Assembly (NCBI RefSeq): GCF_030122805.1
Contig: NZ_CP126080.1
Location: 315,001-379,000 of the forward strand
DNA: 64,000 bases
Source: Mesobacillus sp. AQ2
Lineage (GTDB): Bacteria; Bacillota; Bacilli; Bacillales; Cytobacillaceae
Direction of reading: 5' to 3'
Below, in pieces: positions 10,819-53,700 of the stretch. Numbering within the stretch: the stretch's first letter is position 1; every line of letters begins with the position of its first letter. The position numbers and the translations under genes were made by a program. The notes beneath the pieces were generated by a model. It was not told where the DNA came from. It ran no database searches and saw nothing but the letters and a program-made list of their open reading frames with translations.

Positions 10819-10953
10819 GTGCAATTATATAAGGTTAACGCGCAATTATGCGATAGAACTGTGCAATTATAGTTTCTGTTGGTGCAATTAACCTGAATGA
10901 TCGTGCAATTATGAGTTCCATTCGTGCAATTAACTCGAATGACCGTCAATAGA
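10819..10953 (+). repeat. Phased array A: GTGCAATTA word every 21 bp between purF and purM
   Basis: The word GCAATTA starts at 10821, 10842, 10863, 10884, 10905 and 10926, an exact 21-base pitch, with a decayed seventh copy (CGTCAATAG, one base short) near 10946. Five copies extend to (C/G)TGCAATTA; the one at 10842 reads CGCAATTA. The roughly 12 bases between words are not conserved. The array starts 27 bases after the purF stop and would be transcribed with the operon. The same word in the other orientation and at the same pitch makes up array D at 31.35 kb. Confidence 0.9.
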
Positions 10954-11060
10954 AGGCTACTATTCGTAGAATTCTCCTGTAGTCTGGCGATGGAAAACAT
11001 GGTTGAGAAGAAATGTAGAAGTTGAATACTAGAAAAACAGCCAAATCGGAGGTAGTGAAC

Positions 11061-12104
11061 ATGGCAAATGCGTATAAGCAGGCTGGTGTGGATATAGAGG
11101 CCGGGTATGAGGCGGTCGAACGGATCAAAAAGCATGTGAATCGGACGGGCAGGCCGGGTGTGTTCGGGGCGCTGGGCGGATTCGGGGGGATGTTCGACCT
11201 TTCCAGTCTCGGACTGAAAGAACCGGTACTCGTTTCAGGTACGGATGGTGTCGGCACGAAGCTGATGCTGGCTTTCATGATGGACCGCCATGATACAATT
11301 GGCATTGATGCGGTCGCGATGTGCGTGAACGACATCGTTGTCCAGGGAGCAGAACCACTCTACTTCCTTGATTACATTGCTTGCGGCAAAGCCCAGCCTG
11401 AGAAAATCGAAGCGATTGTCAAAGGGATTGCCGATGGCTGCGAGCAGGCAGGCTGCGCCCTCGTAGGAGGGGAAACTGCGGAAATGCCAGGAATGTACTC
11501 TCCGGAAGAATACGATTTGGCTGGTTTTTCGGTGGGGGCCTGTGAAAAAACTGATATCATTACAGGCCAGCAAATCAAGGAAGGCGACGTGCTGATCGGG
11601 CTGGCTTCAAGCGGGATCCACAGCAATGGATACTCGCTTGTTCGCAAAGTGTTTCTTGAGCAGGCCGGCTGGAAGCTTGACCGACATGTGGAGGAGTTCG
11701 GCTGTACACTTGGCGAAGAGCTGCTGAAGCCGACCCGCATTTATGTAAAATCAGTACTTGCCGCTATGAAGCAATTTGAGCTTAAAGGGCTTGCCCACAT
11801 CACAGGAGGCGGCTTTATTGAAAACATCCCGAGGATGCTGCCGGAAGGACTTGGCGCTGAGATCGAAGAAGGCAGCTGGGAAATACCTCATGTGTTCAAG
11901 ACACTGGAATCATTAGCACAACTCGACCGCCAGGACATGTATAATACTTTTAATATGGGCGTTGGCATGGTTGTGGCTGTTGATCCGAAAATCGCACCAG
12001 AACTTGTTGGGTTTTTTAACGAAAATGGTGAGCGAGCTTCAGTGATTGGTACAGTCACTGTTTCTGAAGGAATTAAGGTAAAGACGGCTGGTGAAGCAAT
12101 ATGA
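11061..12104 (+). CDS. purM: AIR synthetase PurM
   Basis: PurM closes the imidazole ring, converting FGAM to AIR with ATP. It is 347 residues from ATG 11061, which follows the SD CGGAGGT; an upstream in-frame start at 11022 would add 13 residues not seen in the family. Signatures are [25 protein letters not shown], the ATP-binding [14 protein letters not shown], and [13 protein letters not shown]. It overlaps purN by four bases (ATGA). Confidence 0.96.
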
Positions 12105-12703
12105 AGAAAATCGCGGTGTTTGCATCTGGAAGCGGGAGCAATTTCCAGGCGATTGCGGTTGCTGCCCAGTCTGGAAGCCTGAATGCTGAAATCAGCCTGC
12201 TTGTATGCGACAAGCCGGGTGCGTTTGCAGTTGACCGTGCTGAAATGCTGGGGATTCCTGCCCTGGTCATCAGCCCGAAAAGCTATCTATCCAAGATAGA
12301 ATATGAGGAAGAAATTTTACAAAAACTAACCAGCCTGGAAGTAGACATGATTGTTCTTGCAGGCTATATGCGCCTGATTGGGTCGACATTGCTGAATGCG
12401 TTTGAGGGGAAAATCATCAATATCCATCCGTCGTTGCTGCCAGCTTTTCCCGGCAAGGATGCAATCGGCCAGGCGCTGGCAGCGGGAGTCAAGACAACGG
12501 GAGTGACGATTCACTATGTCGATGAAGGGATGGATACGGGCCCGGTCATTGCAAGCGCGGCAGTGAACATCATTGCTGGTGAGACACACGAGTCACTCCA
12601 GAAGAAAATACAGCGGATCGAACACAGCTTATATCCAGAGGTTCTGGTGGAGCTGCTGAACGGAAAAGAGGAGGCAGTACAATGGGAAAAAAGCGTGCAC
12701 TGA
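12101..12703 (+). CDS. purN: GAR transformylase PurN
   Basis: PurN transfers the formyl group of 10-formyl-tetrahydrofolate to GAR. The 200-residue protein shows [12 protein letters not shown] (phosphate loop), the catalytic [12 protein letters not shown] (Asn, His) and [10 protein letters not shown] (Asp). The order purM-purN-purH and the overlapping ends match B. subtilis. The SD lies in the end of purM. Confidence 0.96.
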
Positions 12704-14220
12704 TCAGTGTTTCGAATAAAGAAGGAATAGTTGAATTAGCAAAGGAGCTTGTTGAGCTTGGATTTGAAATCATCTCGACTGGCGGTACGAAGAATGCCTT
12801 GAAAGAAGGCGGAGTTCCTGTCATCGGCATCAGCGACGTAACCGGATTCCCGGAAATTCTCGAAGGCCGGGTCAAGACGCTCCATCCAAAAATACATGGC
12901 GGATTGCTGGCAAAGCATGATGATCCCTCCCATCAGGCTCAGCTGTCTGAGAATGAAATTGGAAAAATCGAACTTGTCTGCGTCAACTTGTATCCTTTCA
13001 AAGAAACCATTTCAAAGCCAGACGTGACACCGGAAGATGCGATCGAGAATATCGATATTGGCGGTCCGGCTATGCTGCGCGCCTCAGCGAAAAACCATCA
13101 ATACATAACCGTGCTCGTCGATCCTGCCGACTACCAGCAGGTCATCGAAGAATACAAAAATAACAATGAAACCACTCTGGAAACCCGCCGCACCCTTGCA
13201 TCGAAGGTGTTCCGCCATACGGCAGCCTACGATGCGCTGATTGCAGAATACATGACGAATCTCGCAGGCGTGGAACAGCCGGAAAAAATGACGGTTACTT
13301 ACGAGTTGAAGCAAAGCCTTCGATATGGCGAGAACCCACATCAGAAAGCTGCTTTTTATCAGAAGCCGCTTGGTTCAGCATTTTCGGTTGCGGCTGCTGC
13401 ACAGCTTCATGGGAAAGAGCTGTCTTACAATAATATCAATGATGCCAATGCGGCTTTGCAGATTGTAAAAGAATTCTCTGAGCCTGCTGCGGTTGCCGTC
13501 AAGCATATGAACCCATGTGGTGTCGGCACTGGAAAAGATGTTTTTGATGCTTTTGGAAAAGCGTTTGAAGCGGATCCTGTCTCAATCTTTGGAGGCATCA
13601 TCGCGCTGAATCGCGAGGTCGATGGAGAGACGGCACGCAAGCTGTATGAAATCTTCCTGGAAATCATCATTGCGCCTTCTTTTAGCGACGAAGCTCTTGA
13701 GATTTTAACAGCTAAGAAGAATCTGCGCTTGTTGAAGGTTGGATTTGATGGGAATGAAGCCAGGGAAAATACCCTTTCCTCGATCGAGGGCGGCTTGCTT
13801 GTCCAGGAGCAGGATGCATTTGGATTCGAAGACGCTGAAATTTCTGTGCCGACGAAACGCGAACCGACGGATGCTGAGTGGGAAGCGCTGAAACTGGGCT
13901 GGAAGGTTGTTAAGCATGTTAAATCCAACGCAATAGTCGTAACCGATAAGGATATGACACTGGGGATCGGTGCCGGGCAGATGAACCGTGTCGGAGCTGC
14001 GAAAATCGCCCTTGAACAGGCTGGTTCAAAAGCGGAGGGAGCGGCGCTTGCATCTGATGCGTTCTTCCCGATGGATGACACTGTCGAAGCGGCGGCAAAA
14101 GCAGGGATCACCGCCATCATTCAGCCGGGTGGATCAGTCCGTGACGAGGATTCAATTAAAAAGGCGGATGAATACGGTATTGCGATGGTATTTACCGGAG
14201 TAAGACATTTCAGGCATTAA
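12682..14220 (+). CDS. purH: Bifunctional AICAR transformylase / IMP cyclohydrolase PurH
   Basis: PurH performs the last two steps to IMP. The 512 residues divide into an N-terminal cyclohydrolase domain ([29 protein letters not shown]) and a C-terminal formyltransferase domain with the catalytic KHMNPCGVG. The ATG follows an AAAGAGGAGG SD and overlaps purN by 22 bases. The 66 bases before purD include a small TCAGAA/TTCTGA hairpin. Confidence 0.97.
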
Positions 14221-14235
14221 TTTTGTGTGAATTGA

Positions 14236-15640
<1,405 letters not shown>

Positions 15641-15660
15641 TGAATCATCTCCTTTTTGGA

Positions 15661-15690
15661 AGCCCCCGGGTCTGGGGGCTTTATTTTATT
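15661..15690 (+). terminator. Terminator after the pur operon
   Basis: AGCCCCC (15661-15667) pairs with GGGGGCT (15674-15680), followed by TTATTTTATT. It lies 110 bases beyond the purD stop and past the small opposite-strand gene, so pur transcripts would run antisense through that gene before stopping. Confidence 0.8.
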
Positions 15691-15748
15691 GTATAGGAAA
15701 TTATAAAAGCATTTTTGTGTGGATAACTGAATATGGGTGTCTTAATCC

Positions 15749-15862
15749 AGCTCCAGCGCCTAGCCCCTCGAGACGCTTCGGTCCTGCCAATGAAGTCAAA
15801 GAACGACTTCACTGTCAGGCCCTCCAGCGCTTGTCGGGGCTGAACAAGGCGCTTGCGCTTTT
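15749..15862. repeat. 114-bp palindromic Bacillaceae repeat, copy 1
   Basis: The sequence from AGCTCCAGCGCCTAGCCCCT to the CTTGCGCTTTT end recurs at 24817-24930 with only a few substitutions and identical length. It folds on itself: GAAGTC/GACTTC at the centre, extended by imperfect pairing of the flanks, and AGCGCC near the left end with GGCGCT near the right. I know this type of intergenic repeat as frequent in Bacillus-related genomes; it encodes nothing. Confidence 0.9.
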
Positions 15863-15888
15863 TGTTCTTGCTTTGAACCATACAACAG

Positions 15889-16161
15889 TCAACTAGGGTT
15901 ATACTGGATCCATCCTTCAGAGTCCTCATCCTCAGAATTCTTTTGCTCCATCATGTCCTGGCCTTTTTCATAGGCAGCAGTGAGCGGACAGTAGCGGACA
16001 ATTCCTTCCCCGACTTTCATCGCGCCAAGCATCGCAATGAAAAGGTAGGAATCCTTCCAAGGACGCTTCACCATTTTGGAAGTCGACCATGCCAGGATCG
16101 TCAGCCCCGCCGTAATTCTCACAAGTGCATTGATGATACCGATATTCGGACGTACCTTCAT
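15889..16161 (-). CDS. DUF2892 (YgaP-like transmembrane) family protein
   Basis: A 90-residue protein matching the DUF2892 pattern: KVRPNIGIINALVRITAGLTILAW at the N-terminus, and GAMKVGEGIVRYCPLTA with the conserved Cys-Pro. It has two short transmembrane segments (about 10-30 and 40-58) and an acidic tail. Related domains occur alone or fused to rhodanese domains, so a link to sulfur or redox chemistry has been suggested, but the role is not known. SD AAAGGAG lies nine bases upstream. Confidence 0.85.
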   Translation of the reverse strand: MKVRPNIGIINALVRITAGLTILAWSTSKMVKRPWKDSYLFIAMLGAMKVGEGIVRYCPLTAAYEKGQDMMEQKNSEDEDSEGWIQYNPS

Positions 16162-16294
16162 TTTCCATCGCTCCTTTATACAGCTATTTACAATAAATTT
16201 GAAATTCTTTAATGCGTTAAACAGTGAAATATGTTACGATAGTACAATAATGTAAGGGCTTTCTTTTTGGTAAAGAATTTGAATTTAAATATAA

Positions 16295-16538
16295 GGCTCT
16301 GTTCAATCCGCATCTTGTCTAATCACCCTGTTGATTGTAGTGGAAGGCGCGTAGACTCCTCGGAAAATGCTGACGCAATTTCCTCGTGCGTGGGTCAATT
16401 CGCAGAAGCATTTCAGTGTCCTGCGGGATCAGCCGGGAGGTGAGACCCCGCAGGAGCTTGCGACGAGGAGGCTCAGCGCCGGCCCCGCGGAAAGCGAAGC
16501 GCCTGGAACGAAAATCAACAGCCAAGTATAACAGAGCC
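16295..16538. mobile_element. MITE-like element with 9-10 bp terminal inverted repeats
   Basis: The ends GGCTCTGTT (16295-16303) and AACAGAGCC (16530-16538) are perfect inverted repeats. Inside are further arms: GTTGATT...GGCGC with GCGCC...AATCAAC, CCTGCGGG with CCCGCAGG, and AAATGCT with AGCATTT, so nearly the whole 244 bp can fold. No ORF of its own. Flanking octamers AAATATAA and TAACATAG match at only five of eight positions, so a target duplication is at best decayed. The interior resembles a GC-rich repeat common in Bacillaceae. It ends 26 bases before yerA, just outside the SD. Confidence 0.8.
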
Positions 16539-16564
16539 TAACATAGAGAAAAGGGGAACATGGT

Positions 16565-18304
16565 ATGGAACAACGTTATCGATGGAAAAACAAACAATTG
16601 CGCAACCATGCTGCTGTTTTGGACGGCACCCTTTCACCGACGATCTTATTGAAAAATGCAACGTATTTGAACCAGACATTCCGCAAGTGGATGACTGCGA
16701 ACATATGGATTTACAATGACAGGATTGTGTATGTTGGTGAAAACCTGCCGGAAAACACGAAGCGGTGCGAAATAGTGGATTGCGCTGGAATGAAACTGGT
16801 GCCAGGTTATATTGAACCTCACGCCCACCCATTTCAACTTTATAATCCCCATTCTTTCGCTGCCTATGCATCACAGACGGGGACGACCACACTGATCAAT
16901 GATAATATGGTGCTTGCTTTACAATTGGGTAAAAAGAAAGCGTTTTCCTTTATAAATGAACTGAATGACAACCCGGTCACCATGTACTGGTGGAGCCGTT
17001 TTGACGCTCAGACGGAAATCCAGCATGAGGAGGAGGTATTCTCCAACAGCAATGTCAGGTCATGGCTTGAGCATGAGAATGTTGTCCAGGGCGGCGAGTT
17101 GACTTGCTGGCCGAAGCTGATGAATGGCGATGACATGATCCTTCACTGGATGCAGGAAACGAAGCGGATGCACAAGAAAATCGAAGGGCATTTCCCGGGT
17201 GCATCAGAGAAAACGCTGGCAAAAATGATGCTGTTCGGCGCGGATTGCGACCATGAGGCGATGACAGGCGAGGAAGTCAGAAGGAGGTTGATGCAGGGAT
17301 ATATGGTTTCGCTGCGGCATTCCTCAATCCGTCCTGATTTACCGAAGCTGCTTGATGAAATCCATGAGCTGGACATCGCAGTGTATGACCGGTTTATGAT
17401 GACAACGGACGGGGCATCGACGGCGTTTTACGAAAATGGTGTCATCGATGAATTGATCCGGATTGCCATCGATCATGGCGTACCGGTTATTGATGCCTAC
17501 AATATGGCGACAATCAATGTGGCGCGTTATTATAATTTCGAGCATCTGCACGGGAACATCGCCACCGGACGAATCGCGAATATCAATATCCTGAGCGATG
17601 AACTGAATCCGACACCTGTTTCGGTGCTGGCGAAGGGCCAGTGGGTGAAGCGCGACGGTGAGACAATTGATGCAGCGAAAGAATTGAATTGGCCCGAGAT
17701 GGGTTTCGCTCCGCTAGAAATGGACTGGGATTTAACGATGGACGATCTGCAGTTTTCAATGCCATTTGGAATCAAGATGGAGAATTCGGTGATCACGAAA
17801 CCTTATTCCATCTCGATCGATGTGTCTGAAGATCAATTGTCCTCAAAACATGATGAATGTTTTTTCACTCTGATCGACCGCCATGGGAACTGGCGCATCA
17901 ATACAGTCCTAAAGGGCTTCGCCACCGGTTTGCAGGGGCTTGCGAGCTCGTTCTCAAATACCGGTGACATCATTTTAATCGGTAAAGATAAACAGGATAT
18001 GATGGCTGCTTTTAACAGGATGAAAGAGCTTGGAGGCGGAATTGTTGCCTGTGAAAATGGGGTTCCTGTCAGGGAAATCCCACTGAGACTTCAGGGGATC
18101 ATGTCGAGCCATCCTGTGACGGAGCTGATGGCGGAGGAAAAGCATTTGCTGGAATATCTGAAGGATAAGGGCTACAAATTTGCTGATCCGATCTATTCCC
18201 TGCTATTCTTCTCATCAACGCACTTGCCATACATCCGCATCACCCAGCAGGGCATCTATGACGTGATGAAAAAAACGGTACTCTTTCCAACGATAATGCG
18301 TTAA
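16565..18304 (+). CDS. yerA: Adenine deaminase family protein YerA
   Basis: A 579-residue amidohydrolase of the adenine deaminase family. The HxH metal site is H86/H88 in IEPHAHP. GHFPGAS, GADCDHEAMTGEE and the metal-binding Asp in MTTDGAS follow, and the C-terminal AdeC domain ends with the short substrate-binding part. Adenine deaminase turns adenine to hypoxanthine and would feed salvage into the IMP pool made upstream. YerA is a divergent paralogue of AdeC in B. subtilis, so the true substrate is uncertain. Its 5' region is occupied by the MITE-like element. Confidence 0.85.
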   Translation: MEQRYRWKNKQLRNHAAVLDGTLSPTILLKNATYLNQTFRKWMTANIWIYNDRIVYVGENLPENTKRCEIVDCAGMKLVPGYIEPHAHPFQLYNPHSFAAYASQTGTTTLINDNMVLALQLGKKKAFSFINELNDNPVTMYWWSRFDAQTEIQHEEEVFSNSNVRSWLEHENVVQGGELTCWPKLMNGDDMILHWMQETKRMHKKIEGHFPGASEKTLAKMMLFGADCDHEAMTGEEVRRRLMQGYMVSLRHSSIRPDLPKLLDEIHELDIAVYDRFMMTTDGASTAFYENGVIDELIRIAIDHGVPVIDAYNMATINVARYYNFEHLHGNIATGRIANINILSDELNPTPVSVLAKGQWVKRDGETIDAAKELNWPEMGFAPLEMDWDLTMDDLQFSMPFGIKMENSVITKPYSISIDVSEDQLSSKHDECFFTLIDRHGNWRINTVLKGFATGLQGLASSFSNTGDIILIGKDKQDMMAAFNRMKELGGGIVACENGVPVREIPLRLQGIMSSHPVTELMAEEKHLLEYLKDKGYKFADPIYSLLFFSSTHLPYIRITQQGIYDVMKKTVLFPTIMR

Positions 18305-18366
18305 AATATAAAAGTGCATCTAGAGATAGACAGCCATGAATGAACTGGGTTCAAGGGGTGGCGAAA

Positions 18367-19407: not shown

Positions 19408-19436
19408 AATTCTGAGTGAATTAAGGGGTAGAATAT

Positions 19437-19751: not shown

Positions 19752-19765
19752 TTTATGACATGGGA

Positions 19766-19796
19766 CGGAACCAGATCTGGTTCTGTTCTTTTTTTG
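19766..19796 (+). terminator. Terminator after yerC
   Basis: The palindrome GAACCAGATCTGGTTC (19768-19783), extended by flanking ACG/TGT pairs, is followed by TGTTC and seven T residues. Confidence 0.88.
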
Positions 19797-19839
19797 GGGC
19801 TGGCTGGTAAATTGGTAAAAACTACGGATAATTCCCAAT

Positions 19840-20092
19840 TCGCTATAAAAATGAAAAAGTCGCTATATAAATGAACTTTTCGCTATAAAAATCAGAAAGT
19901 CGCTATAAAAATGGATTTTTCGCTATATAAAGAAATTGTCGCTAAATAAGATGGAAAAAAACCAGGTTATTTTCCAGTTCGCCAATAAAATCTGATTATC
20001 GCCAAAAAAGCAGGTATTTTCGCCAAAAAAATGAAAAATCGCCAAAAAACAGGGTGAAATCGCCAATAAAAATCTAAAATCGCCAATAAACC
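19840..20092 (+). repeat. Phased array B: TCGCTATAAA then TCGCCAATAAA words every 20 bp
   Basis: CGCTA words start at 19841, 19861, 19881, 19901, 19921 and 19940; after one empty step at about 19960, CGCCA words start at 19980, 20000, 20021, 20040, 20061 and 20081. The mean pitch over twelve steps is 20.0 bases. The first six share CGCTATAWAA and the last six CGCCAAWAAA, so the word changes mid-array while the register holds. It lies between the yerC terminator and the symporter gene. Confidence 0.9.
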
Positions 20093-29340: not shown

Positions 29341-29429
29341 GTAAAATAGACCCCTTTTTTGAAAGATAGATAATTATTCGCTAGATTTTGGGGATTCCCT
29401 GCTGGGAGTTAGTGTAGTTAATCCTTTTT

Positions 29430-29543
29430 ATTGGCGGAAATCAGATTATATCGACCGCATTTTTGAATATATCAGCGGAAAATGAGATATATCGACCACA
29501 TTTACGATTATATCGACCACTTTCCAAAATATATCGACCAAGT
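29430..29543 (+). repeat. Phased array C: TATATCGACCA word every 20-21 bp upstream of pruA
   Basis: Words of the form TATATCGACC(A/G) have their TCGACC core at 29451, 29472 (variant TCAGCG), 29492, 29513 and 29534, giving steps of 21, 20, 21 and 21. A weaker copy (TTATTGGCGG) lies about 20 bases before the first. The intervening bases are mostly A/T-rich and not conserved. The array lies in the divergent gap between the DinB gene and pruA, about 80 bases before the pruA promoter. Confidence 0.85.
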
Positions 29544-31300: not shown

Positions 31301-31415
31301 TTAATTGCACGGTAAAGACCAGGAATTGCACTATCCCCGCTATTAATTGCACCGAAAAGAGGACGAATTGCACGATAAGACTACATAATCGCACGCTTCA
31401 TAAGCAAAATTGCAC
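31301..31415 (+). repeat. Phased array D: AATTGCAC word every 21 bp between pruA and aceB
   Basis: ATTGCAC starts at 31304, 31325, 31346, 31367, 31388 (variant ATCGCAC) and 31409: six copies with a perfect 21-base pitch and unconserved 12-14-base spacers. The word TAATTGCAC is the reverse complement of GTGCAATTA, the word of array A in the purine operon. Confidence 0.92.
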
Positions 31416-34782: not shown

Positions 34783-35212
34783 TGTCATTGAGGTAATGAC
34801 GGACAAAAAAACTGTGGAAAAAGAAATATGTGTCCGTCACCAAGGCTATGACGGACAAAAATAGTACTGAAAACGAAAGAACTGTCCGTCAACAAGGCAA
34901 TGATGGACAAAAATCGAAGGAAAAGTGAAAAAACTGTCCGTCATCAAAGCTATGATGGACAAAAATCCAAGGAAACACGAAAAAAGTGTCCGTCATCAAG
35001 GTTATGACGGACAAAAATCGAAGGAAAATCGAAAAAAGTGTCCGTCACCGAGGCTATGATGGACAAAAATCGAAGGAAAATCGAAAAAAGTGTCCGTCAA
35101 CAAGGCTATGCGGACAAAAATCGAAGGAAATACGAAAAAAGTGTCCGTCATCGAGCCTATGATGGACAAAAATTGAGGGAAAAGCGAAAGAACTGTCCAT
35201 CATCGATGCTTG
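34783..35212 (+). repeat. Phased array E: nine 52-bp units each carrying a TGTCCGTCA / TGACGGACA hairpin
   Basis: TGTCCGTCA starts at 34831, 34883, 34935, 34987, 35039, 35091, 35142 and 35194 (last variant TGTCCATCA): steps of 52, 52, 52, 52, 52, 51 and 52. An earlier unit with a 4-base deletion starts at 34783. Each complete unit is a 27-base inverted repeat (left arm, about 9-base loop such as TCAAGGCTA, right arm) and a 25-base A-rich linker (AAAATCGAAGGAAAATCG type). Arm changes from TGACGG to TGATGG keep a G-T pair. The last unit lacks its right arm. Confidence 0.93.
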
Positions 35213-35309
35213 GGAAGGTAGAAGGTTAGCCCAAGTGAGGACGAAGGAGTAATATAAAGGATACCATGAAAAGTTAAACGGAAGTTACAATAAGTTAGGG
35301 GTGAACCGA

Positions 35310-43883: not shown

Positions 43884-43892
43884 TACCAGATT

Positions 43893-45368: not shown

Positions 45369-45428
45369 AGTCTTTCCCCCTTTGTTATTGTGAAAAAATA
45401 TTAAAAAAATATTGCTAATACAATTAAT

Positions 45429-45458
45429 ATTCTATCATTTTACGTAAATGATTAACAA
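45429..45458 (-). promoter_or_regulatory. SigA promoter of the proline symporter
   Basis: On the minus strand TTGTTA (45453-45458), an 18-bp spacer and TGA-TAGAAT (-10 at 45429-45434) lie about 60 bases before the gene. Confidence 0.65.
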
Positions 45459-45523
45459 TCTATTTTTTCGCTAAAAAAGTTATTCCATAAATAGTAATTT
45501 ACTTTATTAATATATTTATAAAA

Positions 45524-45553
45524 ATAAGAGACCATGGTTGGGCAACCATGGCC
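45524..45553 (-). terminator. Terminator of plsY
   Basis: On the minus strand GGCCATGGTT pairs with AACCATGGTC across a GCCC loop, followed by TCTTATTTTT. Confidence 0.8.
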
Positions 45554-45558
45554 TTTCG

Positions 45559-46173: not shown

Positions 46174-46379
46174 AAAAAGTCACCCTTTTAGTCAAGATTA
46201 GAGGTTCTGGTGTATTGTAAAATTATGTAACCATCCTTTCTGTATTGTAAAAAATAAATGGTATGATTGAAAGAGTTTTTCTGAAAAATACGATAGTTAA
46301 CACTTTGATTAAATACTGAGTTTCTTTTTGGCAAATAGGTGTAAAGTAGTTTATGATATATCCGGTAGTATCCGGGAGA

Positions 46380-46408
46380 TTGCCTGGATGAGAAATATGA
46401 GCTATGAT
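46380..46408 (+). promoter_or_regulatory. SigA promoter of dgkB
   Basis: TTGCCT (46380-46385), a 17-bp spacer and TATGAT (46403-46408), about 45 bases before the dgkB start. Confidence 0.6.
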
Positions 46409-46452
46409 GTAAAATGATGGAATCAAAAACCATATTAAGTAGGATGATGGGT

Positions 46453-47394
46453 ATGAAAAGAGCAAGAATCATTTATAATCCGACTTCGGGCCGTGAAGTT
46501 TTTAAAAAGCATCTTGCGGAAGTTCTGGTGAAGCTGGAGAATGCCGGCTATGAAACATCATGCCATGCAACGACATGCGAGGGTGATGCGACGCAGGCTG
46601 CCAGGATTGCAGTCGAGCGGAAATATGACCTCGTGATTGCGGCTGGTGGCGATGGAACGATCAATGAAGTGGTCAATGGAATCGCCGAGCAGGAATACCG
46701 CCCGAAAATTGGCGTCATTCCAGTTGGCACAACGAACGACTTTGCCCGCGCACTGCATATTCCGCGGGATATCGAGGCAGCGGTCGACATCATTGTAAAA
46801 GGCGAAACGATCCCGGTCGACGTTGGCCGGATCAACGATAAATATTTCATAAATATCGCAGGCGGCGGCAGGCTGACTGAGCTGACATACGAAGTTCCAA
46901 GCAAGCTCAAGACGATGCTCGGCCAGCTCGCATACTATTTAAAAGGAATCGAGATGCTGCCATCGATCAGAGCATCTGAAGTGACAATTGAGTATGATGG
47001 CAAGCTGTATGAAGGCGAGGTCATGATGTTCCTCGTCGGGCTGACGAACTCTGTCGGCGGATTTGAGCGTCTGGCACCGAACTCATCAATCAATGACGGG
47101 ATGTTCTCGCTGTTGATTTTGAAAAAGACTAACCTGGCTGATTTTATCAGGATTGCTTCACTTGCAGTCCGTGGCGAGCACATCAATGACCCGGGTGTAA
47201 TATACACACAAGCCAACCGGATCAAGGTGCATTCGAAGGAAACAGTCCAGCTGAATCTCGACGGAGAATACGGCGGAAACCTTCCAGCCGAATTCGAAAA
47301 CCTGTTCAGGCACATCGAAGTCTACGTGCCGCTCGACGAAATCCGTCCAGAAGACCGTCCGGAGAACCTGGAATTGAACTTTAAAGCAGAATGA
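46453..47394 (+). CDS. dgkB: Diacylglycerol kinase DgkB
   Basis: A soluble lipid kinase that recycles diacylglycerol, left over from lipoteichoic acid synthesis, to phosphatidic acid. From ATG 46453 it is 313 residues and begins MKRARIIYNPTSGRE as in B. subtilis DgkB (YerQ); the in-frame start at 46414 adds 13 residues over the promoter region. Signatures: AAGGDGTINEVVNG (nucleotide site), GVIPVGTTNDFARAL, and LNLDGEYGG near the C-terminus. Confidence 0.95.
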   Translation: MKRARIIYNPTSGREVFKKHLAEVLVKLENAGYETSCHATTCEGDATQAARIAVERKYDLVIAAGGDGTINEVVNGIAEQEYRPKIGVIPVGTTNDFARALHIPRDIEAAVDIIVKGETIPVDVGRINDKYFINIAGGGRLTELTYEVPSKLKTMLGQLAYYLKGIEMLPSIRASEVTIEYDGKLYEGEVMMFLVGLTNSVGGFERLAPNSSINDGMFSLLILKKTNLADFIRIASLAVRGEHINDPGVIYTQANRIKVHSKETVQLNLDGEYGGNLPAEFENLFRHIEVYVPLDEIRPEDRPENLELNFKAE

Positions 47395-47398
47395 TTGG

Positions 47399-47427
47399 AA
47401 ACCACTCCTGGTTGGAGTGGTTTTTTT
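47399..47427 (+). terminator. Terminator after dgkB
   Basis: ACCACTCC pairs with GGAGTGGT and is followed by TTTTTT. Confidence 0.9.
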
Positions 47428-47452
47428 GTGGTTTGGAGTAGGGTATAGGAGG

Positions 47453-47566
47453 ATATTCCTTGGAAAATGATTATATTCCTTAAAAATGAAAATATATTCC
47501 TTAAACCTATCGATTTATTCCTGAGAAAGCAGGATATATTCCTTAGATTTTGGTTTTATTCCTATA
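47453..47566 (+). repeat. Phased array F: TATATTCCTTA word every 20-21 bp downstream of dgkB
   Basis: ATTCCT occurs at 47455, 47475, 47496, 47517, 47538 and 47558 (steps 20, 21, 21, 21, 20); the one at 47517 reads ATTCCTG and the last ATTCCTA. The fuller word is TATATTCCTTA. The array begins 26 bases after the dgkB terminator. A separate inverted repeat, TCAGGCAA (47644-47651) with TTGCCTGA (47696-47703), lies between the array and pncA. Confidence 0.87.
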
Positions 47567-47757
47567 TCAAAATAAATCGATGTATGCTGATCAATATTTA
47601 GCTGTGATCAACCATTTTTACTGACAACCTCTGATAACTAAATCAGGCAAGCCAATATAGATGTACCAAAAGCCCGCCATTCGAAATGAAAAATTTGCCT
47701 GAAAATCATATTTGGATGAAAATAAAAGATAATAAGATAAAAGGATGTGGATACATA

Positions 47758-48309
47758 ATGGGGAAGAAAGCGTTGATCAATATCGACTATACGTATGACT
47801 TCGTGGCGGATGATGGGCGGCTGACTTGCGGTGTGCCTGGCCAGGCAATTGAAGAGAATCTGGTTGGCGTGACGCAGGAATTCATCAAGAATGGCGATTA
47901 TGTTGTTTTCGCGATTGATGTCCATGATGAGGGGGACGAGTTCCATCCGGAAACAAAATTGTACCCGCCACATAATATCCGCGGCACAAAGGGCAGAGAT
48001 TTGTTCGGCAGCCTTCAAGAAGTTTATGACGAGAACAAACATCTGGACCATGTGTATTTTATCGACAAGACAAGGTATTCTGCGTTTGCCGGTACGGACC
48101 TGGAAATAAAGCTGCGCGAGCGGGGCATCACGGAAGTCCATCTTGTCGGGGTATGTACGGATATTTGCGTGCTGCATACAGCGGTCGATGCTTACAATAA
48201 GGGATTTAAGGTTATTGTGTATAAGAATGCGGTGGCTTCTTTTGACCAGGTCGGGCATGAATGGTCACTTCGTCATTTTGAGAACACGATTGGGGCAGAG
48301 GTCAGGTAG
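47758..48309 (+). CDS. pncA: Nicotinamidase PncA
   Basis: A cysteine hydrolase of the isochorismatase-like fold that deamidates nicotinamide to nicotinate for NAD salvage. It is 183 residues from ATG 47758 (SD AAAGGATGTGG). The triad is visible as Asp in NIDYTYDF, Lys in IDKTRYSAFAGTDLE and Cys in GVCTDICVLHTA; the metal ligands are in AIDVHDEGDEFHPE. It sits before pncB, which uses its product, matching yueJ-yueK in B. subtilis. Confidence 0.93.
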   Translation: MGKKALINIDYTYDFVADDGRLTCGVPGQAIEENLVGVTQEFIKNGDYVVFAIDVHDEGDEFHPETKLYPPHNIRGTKGRDLFGSLQEVYDENKHLDHVYFIDKTRYSAFAGTDLEIKLRERGITEVHLVGVCTDICVLHTAVDAYNKGFKVIVYKNAVASFDQVGHEWSLRHFENTIGAEVR

Positions 48310-48334
48310 GATATTGAATACGTGGTTTTGGCAG

Positions 48335-48375
48335 GGAAAACGGTAAAAAGGTAAGTCGGTTTTCCGTGTTTTTAA
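48335..48375 (+). terminator. Hairpin between pncA and pncB
   Basis: GGAAAAC (48335-48341) pairs with GTTTTCC (48359-48365) over a 17-base loop, followed by GTGTTTTT. The stem is short and the loop long, so it may be a weak attenuator between the two genes rather than a true end. Confidence 0.4.
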
Positions 48376-48431
48376 AAGCATCCGTGCAATATCCATGATG
48401 AATTAGATGCAGTTAATTTGGAGGTTTTTTG

Positions 48432-49907
48432 ATGAGTACGAAATTCACAGATGATAGTTTAATGCTCCATACGGACTTATATCAGTTAAATATGATGGAA
48501 ACTTACTGGCGTGACGGCGTCCATAATCGCCGCGCGGTGTTTGATTTGTTTTTCCGCAAGCTTCCTTTCGGCAATGGATATGCCGTTTTTGCAGGCCTAG
48601 AAAAAATCATCCAGTACATCGAGAACTTTGGCTTCACAGAGGATGATATTCAGTATTTAAGAGAGGAAGGAAAGTTCGGAGAAGATTTCCTTGCTTTTTT
48701 ACAAGATATGAAATTCACTGGCTCGATCCGTTCTATGCAGGAGGGGGAGATTGTTTTTGCCAATGAGCCGCTGATTCGGGTGGATGCTCCGCTTGCTGAA
48801 GCGCAGCTGATTGAAACTGCGCTGCTGAACATTGTCAACTACCAGACATTGATCGCGACAAAGGCTTCCCGTATCAAGCAGGTGGTGAAGGATGAAGTGG
48901 CGATGGAGTTCGGTACGCGCCGGGCGCATGAACTGGATGCGGCGCTCTGGGGCACTCGCGCTGCCTATATCGGAGGTTTTGATTCGACCAGTAACGTACG
49001 TGCCGGCAAGCTGTTTGGAATTCCAACCGCTGGGACTCATGCGCATTCCATGGTTCAGGCTTACAAGGATGACTATACCGCTTTTAAAAAATACGCCGAA
49101 ACGCATAAGGACTGCGTATTCCTTGTTGATACGTATGATACTCTAAGGTCCGGTGTGCCAAACGCAATTAAGGTTGCCAGGGAATTTGGCGACAAAATCA
49201 ACTTTATCGGGATCCGCCTCGACAGCGGTGACCTTGCGTATCTTTCCAAGGAAGCACGCAAATTGCTGGATGAAGCAGGATTTAAGGATGCAAAAATCGT
49301 GGCCTCCAGCGATTTGGATGAATACACAATCATGAACCTGAAAGCCCAGGGCGCAAAAATTGATATTTGGGGAGTGGGCACAAAGCTCATTACCGCCTAT
49401 GAACAAGCTGCGCTCGGCGCTGTTTATAAAATCGTTTCAGTCGAGCAGTCTGATGGAAGAATGGAGGACACCATCAAGATTTCCTCGAATCCTGAAAAAG
49501 TGACAACGCCTGGAATCAAAAATGTGTACAGAATCATCAACAAAGCCAATAATCGTTCTGAGGGGGACTACATCACACTTGAAGGCGAAAATCCGCAGCA
49601 GGAAAAGCGCTTGAAGATGTTCCACCCGGTCCACACGTTCATCAGTAAGTTTGTCACCAATTTTGATGCAAGAGATTTGCATCATGATATTTTTAAGGAG
49701 GGCAAGCTTGTGTATGAACAGCCAAGCCTGGATGAAGTCCGCAAGCATTCAACATACTGCCTCGGCGTTCTTTGGGAAGAATACACACGCATGCTTAATC
49801 CAGAAGAATACCCAGTGGACCTCAGCCAGAAATGCTGGGACAACAAGATGCGCAATATAGAAGAAGTGAGAGAAAAGGTCATGGAGATGACTGGCGAGAA
49901 AATGTAA
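48432..49907 (+). CDS. pncB: Nicotinate phosphoribosyltransferase PncB
   Basis: Joins nicotinate and PRPP to nicotinate mononucleotide, the second salvage step after PncA. The 491-residue protein starts at ATG 48432 (SD GGAGG; the TTG just before is in frame but badly spaced). Signatures: LHTDLYQLNMMETYW, EFGTRRAHELDAALWG, the phosphorylated His region GIPTAGTHAHSMVQAY, and RLDSGDLAYLS. The pair pncA-pncB gives a complete nicotinamide salvage route. Confidence 0.95.
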   Translation: MSTKFTDDSLMLHTDLYQLNMMETYWRDGVHNRRAVFDLFFRKLPFGNGYAVFAGLEKIIQYIENFGFTEDDIQYLREEGKFGEDFLAFLQDMKFTGSIRSMQEGEIVFANEPLIRVDAPLAEAQLIETALLNIVNYQTLIATKASRIKQVVKDEVAMEFGTRRAHELDAALWGTRAAYIGGFDSTSNVRAGKLFGIPTAGTHAHSMVQAYKDDYTAFKKYAETHKDCVFLVDTYDTLRSGVPNAIKVAREFGDKINFIGIRLDSGDLAYLSKEARKLLDEAGFKDAKIVASSDLDEYTIMNLKAQGAKIDIWGVGTKLITAYEQAALGAVYKIVSVEQSDGRMEDTIKISSNPEKVTTPGIKNVYRIINKANNRSEGDYITLEGENPQQEKRLKMFHPVHTFISKFVTNFDARDLHHDIFKEGKLVYEQPSLDEVRKHSTYCLGVLWEEYTRMLNPEEYPVDLSQKCWDNKMRNIEEVREKVMEMTGEKM

Positions 49908-49914
49908 TGGTGAG

Positions 49915-49944
49915 GGCTGCTTCCTGAGGGGGAGGCAGCTTTTT
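49915..49944 (+). terminator. Terminator after pncB
   Basis: GCTGCTTCC pairs with GGAGGCAGC (one G-T pair), followed by TTTTT. Confidence 0.85.
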
Positions 49945-50027
49945 AAATATATCCTGCGAATATGAAGGATTTCCCCTAGGAATAAAGAATTATTAGAGAA
50001 CGAATCTTCTGCTAAGGGTGTTGCCGT

Positions 50028-51086
50028 GTGAATGACCAGAAGTGCAAGGTGGATTACGAACAGTTCATTCCAAGAGAAACGGGCTTTATTTTCAAGTTCG
50101 AAAAGAAAGACAATACCTTCATTCATACGTTTATTGAAGGCAAACTTCTCGGAAAAATGGGTCTTTGCCCAGAATTAATTGAGGGAAAAACTTTATTTGA
50201 GTTCCTTCCGGCTGAACATGCTCTCCGTAAGGCAGCTTTTTATGAAAAAGCTTGGAACGGGGAGCATGTCAACTATGAAGGGAGCATAGGAGGAATCCAC
50301 TACTTGGCTGTCTTGAATCCTGTCCTGCAAAACGGAGTGACGGTGGAGGTAATCGGGACGTCGATCGACATTACCAAGGAAAAAACGAGAGAAAAGCAGG
50401 TCCAGCAGATGGAGAAGCTTTCCGTAGTTGGTGAATTGGCGGCAGGCATAGCACATGAAATCCGGAATCCTCTAACATCACTTAAAGGTTTTGCGAAAAT
50501 CATCAAAGAAAGTGTGTCGGACCAAACTTTATTGCCGTACCTGGACATTATGCTGGATGAGATGGACAGGATCAATGAAATCGTCAATGAGTTCATGTTC
50601 ATTGCGAAACCAAGTGAACATGTCAATTTTCAGCAAACAAATTTTAATAAGCTATTACAGGAATGCATTCACTTTATGGCACCTCAGGCCAACCTTAAAA
50701 GTATTGAAATAGAGCTGAATTCCGATTCCGAAGTTTTCTTGAATTGCGACCGCAAGCAAATGAAACAGGTGCTGATTAATTTGCTGCAAAACTCAATCGA
50801 GGCGACAGAGGACAACGGACATTTTATCGAAGTAAGGCTCGAAGAAATGGGCACGGATTCTGTTTCGGTAACAATCATCGATAAGGGCTGCGGAATTGAA
50901 AATTCAAGGTTCAACCGGTTGTTCGAACCGTTTTATTCAACAAAAGAAAAAGGGACTGGGCTAGGGCTGATTACCTGCAAGAGAATCATCGACCTCCACC
51001 AGGGCCGTATTGATATCAAGAGCAAGCTTGGCGAAGGAACAACCATCAGGATTTGTTTACCAAGGTTACTGGATGGAAAATCGTAA
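50028..51086 (+). CDS. Soluble PAS-domain sensor histidine kinase
   Basis: A 352-residue kinase without transmembrane segments. Residues about 10-120 form a PAS-like sensor (FEKKDNTFIHTFIEGKLLGK; EVIGTSIDITKEK). The phosphorylated His lies in AAGIAHEIRNPLTSLKGF, followed by the catalytic domain: NLLQNSIEAT (N box), DKGCGIENSRF (G1), YSTKEKGTGLGL (F and G2). The HEIRNPLTxxKGF box is of the KinA/KinB type that feeds Spo0F, and no response regulator is adjacent, so a role in the sporulation phosphorelay is likely but inferred. GTG start with SD AAGGGTG. Confidence 0.9.
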   Translation: MNDQKCKVDYEQFIPRETGFIFKFEKKDNTFIHTFIEGKLLGKMGLCPELIEGKTLFEFLPAEHALRKAAFYEKAWNGEHVNYEGSIGGIHYLAVLNPVLQNGVTVEVIGTSIDITKEKTREKQVQQMEKLSVVGELAAGIAHEIRNPLTSLKGFAKIIKESVSDQTLLPYLDIMLDEMDRINEIVNEFMFIAKPSEHVNFQQTNFNKLLQECIHFMAPQANLKSIEIELNSDSEVFLNCDRKQMKQVLINLLQNSIEATEDNGHFIEVRLEEMGTDSVSVTIIDKGCGIENSRFNRLFEPFYSTKEKGTGLGLITCKRIIDLHQGRIDIKSKLGEGTTIRICLPRLLDGKS

Positions 51087-51090
51087 AATA

Positions 51091-51128
51091 AAAAGTGCTT
51101 TGCTCCTATTCGGGGCAGGGCACTTTTG
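51091..51128 (+). terminator. Terminator after the histidine kinase
   Basis: AAAAGTGC pairs with GCACTTTT, with inner pairs TGCTCC/GGGGCA. The U tract is contributed by the stem end. Confidence 0.7.
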
Positions 51129-51202
51129 CTGTATATCTGTTACAATGAAAGAGTATTTCCCCATCATTCCCCCACTTTTTTTCACTGAAAGGAGCCCGCA
51201 AA

Positions 51203-53335
51203 ATGCTGCAAAAAGCCCATGAATTATTGCAAAACCATTTTGGCTATTCCTCATTCCGCCGAGGGCAGGACCAGGCAATCACCTCGGTGCTGGAAGGGAA
51301 CAATACGGTCTGCGTCATGCCGACCGGCGGAGGCAAGTCGATCGTCTATCAAATCCCGGCACTCGTGCTGCCAGGAACGACCATTGTCATCTCTCCGTTG
51401 ATTTCTTTGATGAAGGACCAGGTGGACACACTCATCCAGCACGGAATTCCGGCGACGTATATCAACAGTTCGCTGACTGCCGGCGAAGCCGCCAGCCGGA
51501 TGGATGACGCCAGGAACGGAAAGTACAAGCTGTTATATATCGCTCCCGAGCGGCTTGGATCCTGGGAGTTCATCGATGACTTGCAGGACATGGAAATCCC
51601 GCTGATCGCTGTCGACGAAGCGCACTGTATTTCCCAGTGGGGACACGATTTCCGACCGAGCTATCTGCAGATTTCCGGCCTGGCTGACCGCCTGCCTAGA
51701 AAACCGATTGTGCTCGCCTTGACGGCAACCGCGACACCAAAGGTAAGGGAAGACATTTGCGCCTCGCTGAAAATAAACCCTGAGAATACAGTGATTACAG
51801 GGTTCGAGCGCAGCAACCTGAGTTTTTCTGTCGTAAAGGGCCAGGACCGACAGGCCTATTTAAGAGATTTTATCAAAAAAAATGAGAAGGAAGCAGGCAT
51901 CATCTATGCGGCGACACGGAAGAATGTCGACCAGCTATATGAGTGGCTGCAGAAGGAAGGCTTCAATGCCGCCCGCTATCACGCAGGAATGAATGATGAT
52001 GACCGGAACCGCGAACAGGAGCGTTTTTTACAGGACGAAGCCACTGTGATGGTCGCGACGTCGGCATTCGGGATGGGCATCGACAAAAGCAATATTCGCT
52101 ATGTCCTCCATTTTCAGCTCCCTAAAAATATGGAGAGCTACTATCAGGAGGCTGGCCGTGCCGGTCGTGATGGCCTGGACAGTGAATGTGTGGTGCTGTA
52201 TTCGTCCCAGGATGTCCAAGTGCAACGCTTTTTGATTGACCAGTCTGCGGATCGTGAACGGATTGCGCCTGAACTGGAAAAACTGCAGCAAATGGTCGGC
52301 TACTGCCATACGGAGGAATGTCTGCAATCCTATATCCTCCATTACTTTGGCGAGAGTGATGCGGAGCCGTGCGGTCGCTGCGGCAATTGTACCGACTCCC
52401 GTGAAACGGAGGATGTCACGAAGGATGCGCAAATGGTGCTGTCGTGCATCATCCGGATGGGCCAGAAATACGGCAAGGCAATGACGGCGAATGTTTTGAC
52501 CGGTTCGCGAAATAAGAAGGTGCTCGAATTCCGGCTAGATAAACTGCCGACGTACGGATTGATGAAGAATAAGAGCACGAAGCAGGCGAATGACCTGATC
52601 GAGTTCCTGATTTCGCAGGAACTGATTGGTGTAGAGCACGGAACTTATCCGACGATTTATGTCCCGGAAAAGGGGAAGGATGTTTTGCTCGGCAAGACCA
52701 AGGTGTTCAGGAAGGAAGCGGTCCGGGTCAAGCAGGTTTCAAATGATGATCCGTTATTTGAAGAACTGCGGGAATTGCGGCGAGAGATTGCTTCTGCTGA
52801 AAAAGTGCCGCCATTTGTGATTTTCTCAGATTCCTCACTGAAGGATATGTGCCTGAAGCTGCCGCTGACGGATGGAGAATTCCTTGGTGTGGCTGGAGTT
52901 GGAGAGCATAAGCTGCAGAAGTATGGCGCACCATTCATTCAGCGGATCATCGAGTTCTGCGAGGAGCACCCAGAGCGTCAGCCCGTGATGAATGCAGTAG
53001 CTGAGCCGGTGAAGAAACCGGCGAAAAAAGCTGTTGGCGATTCTCATCTCGAAACCTACAAGCTGCATCAGGAGAAACTGTCAGTGGCTGAAATTGCCGC
53101 CAAGCGTGAATTGGTGGAAAGCACGGTCGAAAATCACTTGATTCAATGCATCCAGCAGGGAATGGAAGTCGACTATGACGTGCTGATTCCTGCTGAGTTT
53201 ATAGCTGACCTGGAGCAAGCCGTGGCAGAAGCCGGCCGCGACAGGTTAAAGCCAATCAAGGAACTGCTGCCAGAAGAGGTCAGTTATTTTATGATCAAGG
53301 CATTTTTGTATATGTCAAAAAAGAAGGTACATTAA
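51203..53335 (+). CDS. recQ: ATP-dependent DNA helicase RecQ
   Basis: A superfamily 2 3'-5' helicase for recombination and fork repair. 710 residues: Walker A MPTGGGKSIVYQ, DEAH box VDEAHCISQWGHDFRPSY, motif VI QEAGRAGRDGLDSECV, the zinc-binding Cys set CHTEECLQSYILHYFGE with CGRCGNC, an RQC winged helix, an HRDC domain (about 520-590) and a helix-turn-helix tail (LSVAEIAAKRELVESTVENHL). A good SD, AAAGGAG, precedes the ATG. The full domain set indicates a working RecQ. Confidence 0.95.
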   Translation: MLQKAHELLQNHFGYSSFRRGQDQAITSVLEGNNTVCVMPTGGGKSIVYQIPALVLPGTTIVISPLISLMKDQVDTLIQHGIPATYINSSLTAGEAASRMDDARNGKYKLLYIAPERLGSWEFIDDLQDMEIPLIAVDEAHCISQWGHDFRPSYLQISGLADRLPRKPIVLALTATATPKVREDICASLKINPENTVITGFERSNLSFSVVKGQDRQAYLRDFIKKNEKEAGIIYAATRKNVDQLYEWLQKEGFNAARYHAGMNDDDRNREQERFLQDEATVMVATSAFGMGIDKSNIRYVLHFQLPKNMESYYQEAGRAGRDGLDSECVVLYSSQDVQVQRFLIDQSADRERIAPELEKLQQMVGYCHTEECLQSYILHYFGESDAEPCGRCGNCTDSRETEDVTKDAQMVLSCIIRMGQKYGKAMTANVLTGSRNKKVLEFRLDKLPTYGLMKNKSTKQANDLIEFLISQELIGVEHGTYPTIYVPEKGKDVLLGKTKVFRKEAVRVKQVSNDDPLFEELRELRREIASAEKVPPFVIFSDSSLKDMCLKLPLTDGEFLGVAGVGEHKLQKYGAPFIQRIIEFCEEHPERQPVMNAVAEPVKKPAKKAVGDSHLETYKLHQEKLSVAEIAAKRELVESTVENHLIQCIQQGMEVDYDVLIPAEFIADLEQAVAEAGRDRLKPIKELLPEEVSYFMIKAFLYMSKKKVH

Positions 53336-53340
53336 GATGA

Positions 53341-53368
53341 GACGAAGCCAGGGGGCTTCGTCTTTTTT
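53341..53368 (+). terminator. Terminator after recQ
   Basis: GACGAAGCC pairs with GGCTTCGTC and is followed by TTTTTT. Confidence 0.92.
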
Positions 53369-53410
53369 CATGTTATCCACTTTATCCAGGGGTTTTGTTG
53401 TCAGTTCGGT

Positions 53411-53700
53411 AACATAAAGAAGTGAAATGTTCCCCGTTAATTGAGGAGAATAGGAAACGGGTCACATAAAAAGAAGATATGTGCCCGGTCAGGGGAGGAA
53501 AGGGAGAAACGGGTCATATAAATGCCGGATATGTGCTCGGTCAGGGGAGGAAAAGGGAAAACGGGGCACATAAATGCTGGATATGTGCCCGGTCAGGAGC
53601 GGAAAGGGGAAAACGGAGCACATAAATGCCGGATATGTGCCCGGTTAGGTGTGGAAAGGAGAAACGGGGCACATAAAGAAACGATATGTGTTCATTTAGG
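53411..53700 (+). repeat. Phased array G: six 52-bp units with GGGCACATA / TATGTGCCC hairpins
   Basis: ATATGTGC or its variants start at 53425 (AAATGTTC), 53477, 53529, 53581, 53633 and 53684, steps of 52, 52, 52, 52 and 51. The arm CACATA precedes each by about 15 bases, so a unit is GGGCACATA, a loop of about nine bases (AATGCCGGA), TATGTGCCC, then a purine-rich linker (GGTCAGGGGAGGAAAGGG type). In the unit with CATATA the arm still pairs with TATGTG through a G-T pair. The pitch and layout equal array E, but the sequence is unrelated. About 165 bases without clear features follow. Confidence 0.9.

Follow-up and report, generated by a model that had tools for sequence, protein, structure and literature searches.

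Phased intergenic arrays of short words in a Mesobacillus chromosome: candidate platforms for a DNA-binding protein

Introduction

Repeats of constant size, 20–21 and 52 nucleotides (nt), and of variable sequence form a described but enigmatic class (Subirana and Messeguer, 2021, PMC8161180), with a 2019 survey by the same authors as background (PMC6749651). The 2021 account counts 781 repeats of 20–21 nt and 1886 of 51–53 nt in 176 Bacillus genomes, notes words and their reverse within one repeat, remarks that 20–21 nt equals two helical turns, and suggests a DNA-polymerising protein or small RNAs as the explanation. Here we analyse seven intergenic arrays of this kind in a 64,000-nt stretch of Mesobacillus sp. 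AQ2 (contig NZ_CP126080.1, positions 315,001 to 379,000; hereafter the window), together with arrays elsewhere in its genome and in relatives. An earlier reading of the window made without database searches (the sequence-only reading) knew no named element of this type; the class is in fact already published, though without an explained function, and the idea of a polymerising nucleoid protein is Subirana and Messeguer's (PMC8161180). As far as the available part of that account goes, the arrays resemble the published repeats in their 20–21 and 51–53 nt classes with few other sizes, in the presence of several families per genome, in their non-coding location, in combining characteristic words with their reverse in one repeat, and in being few in the B. 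subtilis group. Beyond it lie a recurrent unit order, an exact inverted spacing of 22 and 30 bp, a leader dyad, avoidance of the replication terminus, and exchange of classes at one syntenic gap. Our literature searches, none aimed at exactly these features, surfaced no prior report of the unit order, the 22/30 spacing or the terminus bias.

Several other systems share some of these traits. Repetitive extragenic palindromes (REPs) and the bacterial interspersed mosaic elements (BIMEs) associated with REP-associated tyrosine transposases (RAYTs) are likewise intergenic, alternate inverted repeats and occur in many copies; the arrays differ from them in a fixed 52-bp pitch, in several word families, and in the lack of arrays beside a Y1 transposase gene at the places examined. 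Plasmid centromeres and iterons also use direct repeats near two helical turns to seat a row of protein, whereas the arrays number 87 in 35% of a chromosome and belong to many word families. The Noc sites of B. subtilis are similarly dispersed on the chromosome and absent near the terminus, but they are single palindromes of one sequence. Clustered regularly interspaced short palindromic repeats (CRISPR) are about 23–47 nt long with unique spacers, which does not fit words of 7–12 nt at 20–21 bp pitch or 52-bp units; this assignment was rejected on the repeats, and cas genes were not searched for. From the patterns in the DNA we propose, at roughly even confidence, that the arrays are double-stranded platforms that seat many copies of a putative sequence-specific DNA-binding protein, or of a few paralogues, in fixed register.

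Results

Two sharp pitch classes between genes

The AQ2 genome (4.80 Mb, one contig) was sampled by stretches, with open reading frames (ORFs) of at least 100 amino acids (aa) as gene models, so that small genes are missed. In 1.664 Mb, about 35% of the chromosome, 44 short-pitch and 43 long-pitch intergenic arrays were called (87 in total); this sum includes stretches partly placed on known arrays, which serve for anatomy, pitch and orientation and not for density. The first 864 kb gave 23 arrays of each class and none once its gaps were shuffled (one shuffle per gap), and six other pitch ranges over the same sequence gave 3, 0, 0, 0, 0 and 3 arrays. The sequence-only reading had proposed an autocorrelation of k-mers over the gaps of the genome, and the result is a set of sharp peaks, not a broad distribution: across 436 ORF-free gaps (155.6 kb in total), recurrences of the same 8-mer number 217 and 115 at 20 and 21 bp and 2354 and 1239 at 52 and 53 bp, against about 4–6 in shuffled sequence. 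Further peaks fall at the multiples 40–42, 60, 80 and 104–106 bp, and elsewhere there are small bumps only, of about 25 or fewer, for example at 11, 65 and 85 bp. Several sequence families of arrays coexist in the genome. One call, near 255.4 kb (L008, 15413–15470), consists of the words TGTGGATAA, twice, and TCTGGATAA at pitches of 22 and 21; these resemble the DnaA box, and this short array is probably a DnaA-box cluster.

Pitch is a property of the word family (20, 21, 52 or 53 bp), with no smear around the single value of about 20.8 that the sequence-only reading had suggested for the short class. Among neighbours 15–27 bp apart in the AQ2 stretches, all 31 TGGTCGA pairs stand at 21 bp, as do all 7 GTGCAATT pairs, and all 75 TCGCTATA pairs stand at 20 bp. 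Whole-genome searches, which allow 19–22 bp, place 40 of 40 TGGTCGA pairs at 21 bp in AQ2 (1 match for the reversed-pattern control) and 76 of 79 in four congeners, G009, G016, G018 and G019 (controls 1, 2, 1 and 2). In Cytobacillus oceanisediminis 2691, 18 of 20 TTGGCCG pairs are at 21 bp (control 0), two of these looking like chance matches in coding sequence.

The arrays of the window

All seven arrays reported by the sequence-only reading were found at their places on direct re-reading of the positions. They and their leaders are as follows, arrays E and G having no assigned strand:

10819..10944, plus strand: array A, six GTGCAATT/GCGCAATT words at pitch 21, in the gap between purF and the next gene (purM by position)
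19811..19839, plus strand: leader of array B1, a dyad ATTGG...CCAAT adjoining the first word
19840..19949, plus strand: array B1, TCGCTATA words at pitch 20, with one variant word at 19
19951..19978, plus strand: leader of array B2, a TGGAAAA...TTTTCCA dyad
19979..20090, plus strand: array B2, TCGCCAATAAA-type words at pitch 19–21
29428..29541, minus strand: array C, TGGTCGATATA words, one CCGCTGATATA unit and a terminal CCGCCAATAA word, all in phase (20/21)
31303..31415, minus strand: array D, six GTGCAATT/GTGCGATT words at pitch 21 (words 31303–31408), after the P5C dehydrogenase gene and a terminator-like hairpin
34801..35216, no strand: array E, eight 52-bp units (one step of 51), after the isocitrate lyase gene
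47453..47564, minus strand: array F, AAGGAATA words (ATTCCT on the plus strand) at pitch 20–21, after the diacylglycerol kinase gene
53453..53690, no strand: array G, about five 52-bp units with inverted half-sites GGGCACATA / TATGTGCCC, after recQ

What had been taken for a single array B with pitch 20 near 19.9 kb does lie there, but as two arrays with different words. The TCGCTATA words of B1, downstream of yerC and a terminator-like hairpin, run from 19840 to 19920 in steps of exactly 20, the variant word following 19 bp further, and the TCGCCAA words of B2 run from 19979 to 20080 in steps of 20, 21, 19, 21 and 20; leaders similar to that of B1 are present at other TCGC arrays of the genome. 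Array C keeps the 20/21 register that it had been given, with six words (starts 29429, 29449, 29470, 29490, 29511 and 29532) stepping 20, 21, 20, 21 and 21. Its terminal CGCCAAT word, in phase with the rest, resembles the words of array B, so the claim that words differ between all arrays except A and D is right about the GTGCAATT shared by those two but overlooks this link. Array F carries ATTCCT at 47455–47558 in steps of 20, 21, 21, 21 and 20. In array E the half-sites ATGAYGGACA / TGTCCGTCAT are inverted with spacings of 22/30 bp, and the units of array G start from 53476 in steps of 52 with one of 51, the last unit being decayed. The genes purF and purN were identified by NCBIfam, and purM beside array A was assigned by position only. 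Upstream of the pur cluster, window positions 2311–2412 hold a purine riboswitch (RF00167, 87.9 bits).

Anatomy of the short-pitch units

Between adjacent units the mean number of changed spacer bases is 4.6 of 14 for TGGTCGA (17 pairs), 4.8 of 12 for TCGCTATA (62 pairs) and 10 of 13 for GTGCAATT (4 pairs). Neighbouring spacers thus differ at many bases while the pitch stays exact, so that length is kept and sequence drifts. The spacers are variable, as the sequence-only reading had said, yet an A at +10 and an A-rich stretch around 16–18 are kept in two of the three families tested. In TGGTCGA units, positions 11–15 vary freely, +10 never and the A-rich 16–18 rarely; in TCGCTATA units, +10 and +11 are fixed or nearly so, 12–15 are free and 16 is nearly fixed. 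The two families thus have a common layout despite unlike cores (fixed A at +10, free 12–15, A-rich 16–18), the core positions themselves being fixed by construction of the search.

Order is also kept at a larger scale, by counts made by eye. A leader dyad (C)TGGAAAA...TTTTCCA(A/G), or a variant of it, opens 20 of 23 TCGCYA/TTGCGA arrays, and a NTTGTGAA spacer unit occurs in 9 of 10 TCGCCA arrays, in 8 cases at the end or close to it. An in-phase CCGC unit is found in 7 of 12 TGGTCGA arrays, and 6 of the 12 follow the order TGGTCGA words, CCGC unit, GGTCGA or GGCCGA word, terminal CGCCAA word. Dimers of 40 bp occur in array B and in another array (L015), and a 42-bp dimer is repeated in genome G015; since tandem duplication yields new copies in this way, it can explain the likeness of words within an array.

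Inverted half-sites in the long-pitch units

Counts for the long arrays use the 38 of 43 with at least 4 copies and at least 3 units of modal length, 30 with period 52 and 8 with period 53. The longest perfect inverted arm in their consensus units averages 7.3 bp against 4.5 in shuffles, and no more than 21 of the 38 have an arm above the 95th percentile of their own shuffles. With oriented cores (GGACA, TGACA, GGGCA and GGTCA with their inverses, in strict orientation), 22 of the 30 period-52 arrays hold a short word and its inverse within the repeat, the other 8 and one of the 8 period-53 arrays lacking cores in both orientations. The distance from core to inverse is exactly 30 bp in 19 of these 22, exactly 22 bp in 2, which are of the GGGCA/GGTCA type with the order of the two spacings reversed, and neither in one (L230). 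Thus 21 of 22 lie at 22 or 30 bp where 0.96 would be expected at random offset, and a looser core pattern, blind to TGACA versus its inverse, gives the same 21 of 22. The spacing is the same under such unlike words as GGACAGCTTTT, TTGACAGCTTT, ATGAYGGACA and GGACATTT. In the eight 53-bp arrays, ATAAGG and its inverse stand at 29/24 in all 7 that are testable (0.29 expected). Units are nearly identical in one 52-bp array (L005). A 21-copy 52-bp array, CTCGTCGCCAAAA / TTTTGGTGACGAG, occurs in a genome of the same order and another family (G057; L167, 1100–2300), about 8 kb or less from a TnsB-like gene.

Orthologous gaps in relatives

Short arrays occur in 28 and long ones in 10 of 80 named loci from relatives (20.3 kb at most), and eight arrays in seven loci have other pitches. 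By YerC identity the nearest named loci are a record labelled Cytobacillus oceanisediminis DE0166 (L044; 100%) and Mesobacillus subterraneus (98%); by YerC (100%) and PurM (96%) L044 fits the genus of the window, which the C. oceanisediminis chromosome (L064) does not, and the label of L044 is probably wrong. Word changes at orthologous gaps, which the sequence-only reading had predicted, are seen. In the purF–purM gap the 21-bp array of the window is built of GTGCAATT. Its counterparts consist of ACGCAATT (M. subterraneus DSM 13966), TGGGAGAAT (Bacillus sp. REN3) and TTGGCCGATAAA (Cytobacillus), and Sutcliffiella has different words again; a second strain of M. subterraneus (L045) has no array there and L044 (PurM 96%) only a remnant. 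In one locus (L046) this gap extends to 929 bp with duplicated blocks of TGGGAGAAT arrays at 21-bp pitch, and in seven others (L053, L055, L056, L058, L061, L064 and L079) the last TTGGCCGATAA word makes a terminator-like hairpin with an inverted copy of itself, and a T-rich run comes next. The yerC gap has short arrays in some species, long arrays in others and none in still others.

The gaps of arrays C, D and G were compared with locus orientation set; what had looked like an exchange of arrays C and D in G061 proved to be a mere strand effect of unoriented loci. Array C, as at least two TGGTCGA-type words 21 bp apart, is present in 17 of 21 genomes of the genus, and a shift from TGGTCGATATA to TGGTCGAATTA spans whole orthologues of it. 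In four genomes with the same layout, per-unit identity is 0.80–1.00 for words and 0.65–0.91 for spacers. At the D gap, short arrays are present in 4 of 21 genomes and long arrays in 5 (one of these from a 259-bp reading), and 12 genomes have neither (one with 47 bp only covered). At the G gap, 12 of 20 genomes have a long array, in some built of other words, and 8 have no array, two of these gaps being only partly covered. After recQ, genome G002 (L208) has CGGACAAAAATC units where the window has GGGCACATA, and this word resembles that of array E; in G015 the recQ frame is split over two matches (L214 and L216), with a stop codon in one. Species-specific sequence is a trait of the published repeats; here, words differ between genera, yet all five genomes of the genus searched for TGGTCGA have TGGTCGA arrays.

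Place on the chromosome

The AQ2 contig opens with dnaA (TIGR00362; start at position 1), and its skew changes sign between 2.54 and 2.70 Mb. Most short arrays keep clear of the replication terminus, and long arrays do not. TGGTCGA pairs are absent from 1.50–3.66 Mb, and TCGCYA pairs from 2.134–3.416 Mb among the matches listed (up to 3.76 Mb; 138 matches in all). Counted by origin and terminus halves, TGGTCGA loci number 18:1 in AQ2 (p 8e-5), 10:2 in G016 (p 0.039), 11:1 in G018 (p 0.006; origin inferred from synteny) and 12:2 in G019 (p 0.013), counts that come from related genomes and hence are not independent; one of the loci lies near 2.4–2.5 Mb in G016, and likewise one in G019. For arrays of any word in stretches not chosen for arrays, window included, the numbers from origin to terminus are 9, 3, 8, 1, 2 and 0 short and 5, 5, 6, 6, 4 and 10 long. 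Nearer to versus farther than 1.2 Mb, short arrays count 20:3 and long arrays 16:20 (p = 0.0012), or 14:3 and 14:20 without the window (p = 0.007), or 12:3 and 14:19 by distinct gaps without the window (p = 0.027); part of these stretches were spaced across 1.68–3.38 Mb after the pair searches had revealed the terminus gap.

Gene orientation was rejected as a siting rule, since short and long arrays occupy 12 and 25 of 291 tandem gaps, 4 and 4 of 53 convergent gaps, 4 and 2 of 92 divergent gaps and 0 and 4 of 44 stretch edges. In tandem gaps 19 of 25 short arrays are nearer the upstream stop, as are only 16 of 31 long ones, so the impression that arrays follow a terminator is only partly borne out. 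Relative to replication, 15 TCGC arrays run with it and 6 against, and 2 TGGTCGA arrays run with it and 10 against.

Discussion

Fixed length with drifting spacers, one spacing beneath many words, recurrent unit orders and chromosomal placement are as expected of a row of protein sites. On the platform reading, each word of a short-pitch array would be one site, with neighbours two helical turns apart, and in a long-pitch array two inverted half-sites would alternate at 22 and 30 bp within a unit of five turns. Adjacent proteins may touch and so form a continuous nucleoprotein stretch. Words within an array could stay alike through re-amplification by tandem duplication, with selection afterwards maintaining words and length as the spacers drift. 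The job would probably be nucleoid organisation or insulation between transcription units, the short-pitch type perhaps serving the origin-proximal arms. Phased binding sites had been a leading idea of the sequence-only reading, which is partly supported overall, and our results are compatible with the helical phasing it suggested. A bolder extension, which we put forward tentatively and consider unlikely as it stands, is a sequence-flexible address system in which related proteins would read two geometries, direct words every two turns and inverted words at 22/30 bp, with words changing across species while geometry holds, the short-pitch class marking the origin-proximal arms and the long-pitch class the whole chromosome.

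Several observations weigh against a protein platform. Our analysis, made on sequence, found no binding protein, and one common protein does not easily account for many unlike cores per genome. Some exact pitches could be a heritage of tandem duplication, as in the 40-bp dimers and the near-identical 52-bp units described above. Two words do not keep one exact pitch: TCGCCAA neighbours stand at 19, 20 and 21 bp in 1, 16 and 8 cases, and CGCGG neighbours at 15, 20, 21 and 22 bp in 2, 2, 6 and 1. The third family tested, GTGCAATT (4 pairs only), is without the constraint layout of the other two; in one of the five array-C units, word and spacer reach the same identity (0.80), and the unaligned flank used in that comparison is no fair baseline. 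The half-site cores were picked after the arrays had been viewed. As for position, the 6:1 ratio of TGGTCGA loci in G009 is not significant alone (p 0.125), the 9:2 ratio of TTGGCCG loci in C. oceanisediminis has p 0.065 and includes the two probable chance matches in coding sequence, the gene-orientation context is weak, and the terminus bias could instead mirror the location of old core genes.

Among other explanations, we think it improbable that the arrays are dispersed selfish repeats, small non-autonomous elements whose words would be sites for a transposase or mobilising enzyme and whose order and leader would descend from master copies. Word families do recur at many loci, close relatives have the same gaps filled or empty, and the leader dyad, the NTTGTGAA spacer and the unit order of TGGTCGA arrays could all be inherited in this way; against this, array C is kept at one gap in most of the genomes compared, with its words mostly better conserved than its spacers, a passive repeat has no need of exact pitch, and blastn, run with the low-complexity filter on, gave no match for E or B in plasmids or for B in phages. 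The remaining candidates, namely palindromes spread by a transposase, transposon ends, RNA hairpins and decayed duplications, fit worse than a protein platform. Neutral slippage, with tandem duplications now decaying, draws on amplification that clearly occurs in the 40- and 42-bp dimers, but it is extremely unlikely given a pitch almost confined to two classes, three families whose spacers drift at unchanged length, and a 22/30 geometry common to unlike words. RNA elements, whether transcribed rows of hairpins or sponges for small RNAs, are very unlikely: long units can fold into hairpins, and Subirana and Messeguer report from published RNA sequencing that the 52-nt repeats of B. coagulans are transcribed (PMC8161180), but stems kept as RNA should favour G-U over A-C mismatches on the transcribed strand, and no such excess is seen in the long arrays (sense strand, G-U 145 against A-C 184; 13 arrays one way and 11 the other). 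The short arrays lack a hairpin per unit, orientation relative to genes is mixed, and an Rfam search of the window matched the purine riboswitch only; the RNA structures that the sequence-only reading had entertained are not supported for the long-pitch arrays, RNA hairpins being rejected for lack of this wobble signature.

Sites for a Tn7-like transposase of the TnsB family, as end relics or target-immunity decoys, seem a poor prospect to us, about on a par with RNA elements. Three of 20 fetched TnsB/TniA neighbourhoods (of 62 matches) contain direct repeats at 20-bp pitch within 10 kb of the gene, possibly at an element end, a fourth (L167) holds a 52-bp array, and words of both kinds have GC cores followed by A-rich stretches. 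AQ2 itself has no match to Mu-transpos_C (PF09299), which 24 of 61 genomes have, and the repeated 9-mers of the three loci share only A- or T-rich words, not GC cores, with other arrays (169–173 arrays); the sharing involves L039, L047, L248 and L257, GAGTTTTTT in L227 and CAGATAAAA in L010. Tn7-like ends were accordingly rejected, with no transposase match in AQ2 and no common cores at the three possible ends. Marginally less probable still are REP- or BIME-like palindromes spread by a RAYT (Y1) transposase. The long arrays, as alternating inverted repeats between genes, are BIME-like, and one Y1_Tnp frame of AQ2 is longer (333 aa, at 4459758–4460096), with longer frames in congeners too; the other Y1 places of the genome are six IS200-like frames of 161–176 aa, making seven in all. 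RAYT genes are typically flanked by their own REPs, but the 16 kb around the 333-aa gene (L288) hold no called array, only 2 of 30 Y1_Tnp loci of 1.7–3.4 kb contain one, and short arrays are direct repeats. Membership was rejected, no Y1 gene flanked by its repeats having appeared at the 3 of 7 AQ2 places examined or among the 30 loci in all.

With these results, a published but unexplained class of repeats gains a testable anatomy: fixed bases, free bases, an inverted spacing and a chromosomal place for each class. If a protein does bind the arrays, a set of soil Bacillaceae would have a layer of chromosome organisation or insulation that is missing from the Bacillus subtilis model, and the changes of words between species would record the evolution of that layer.

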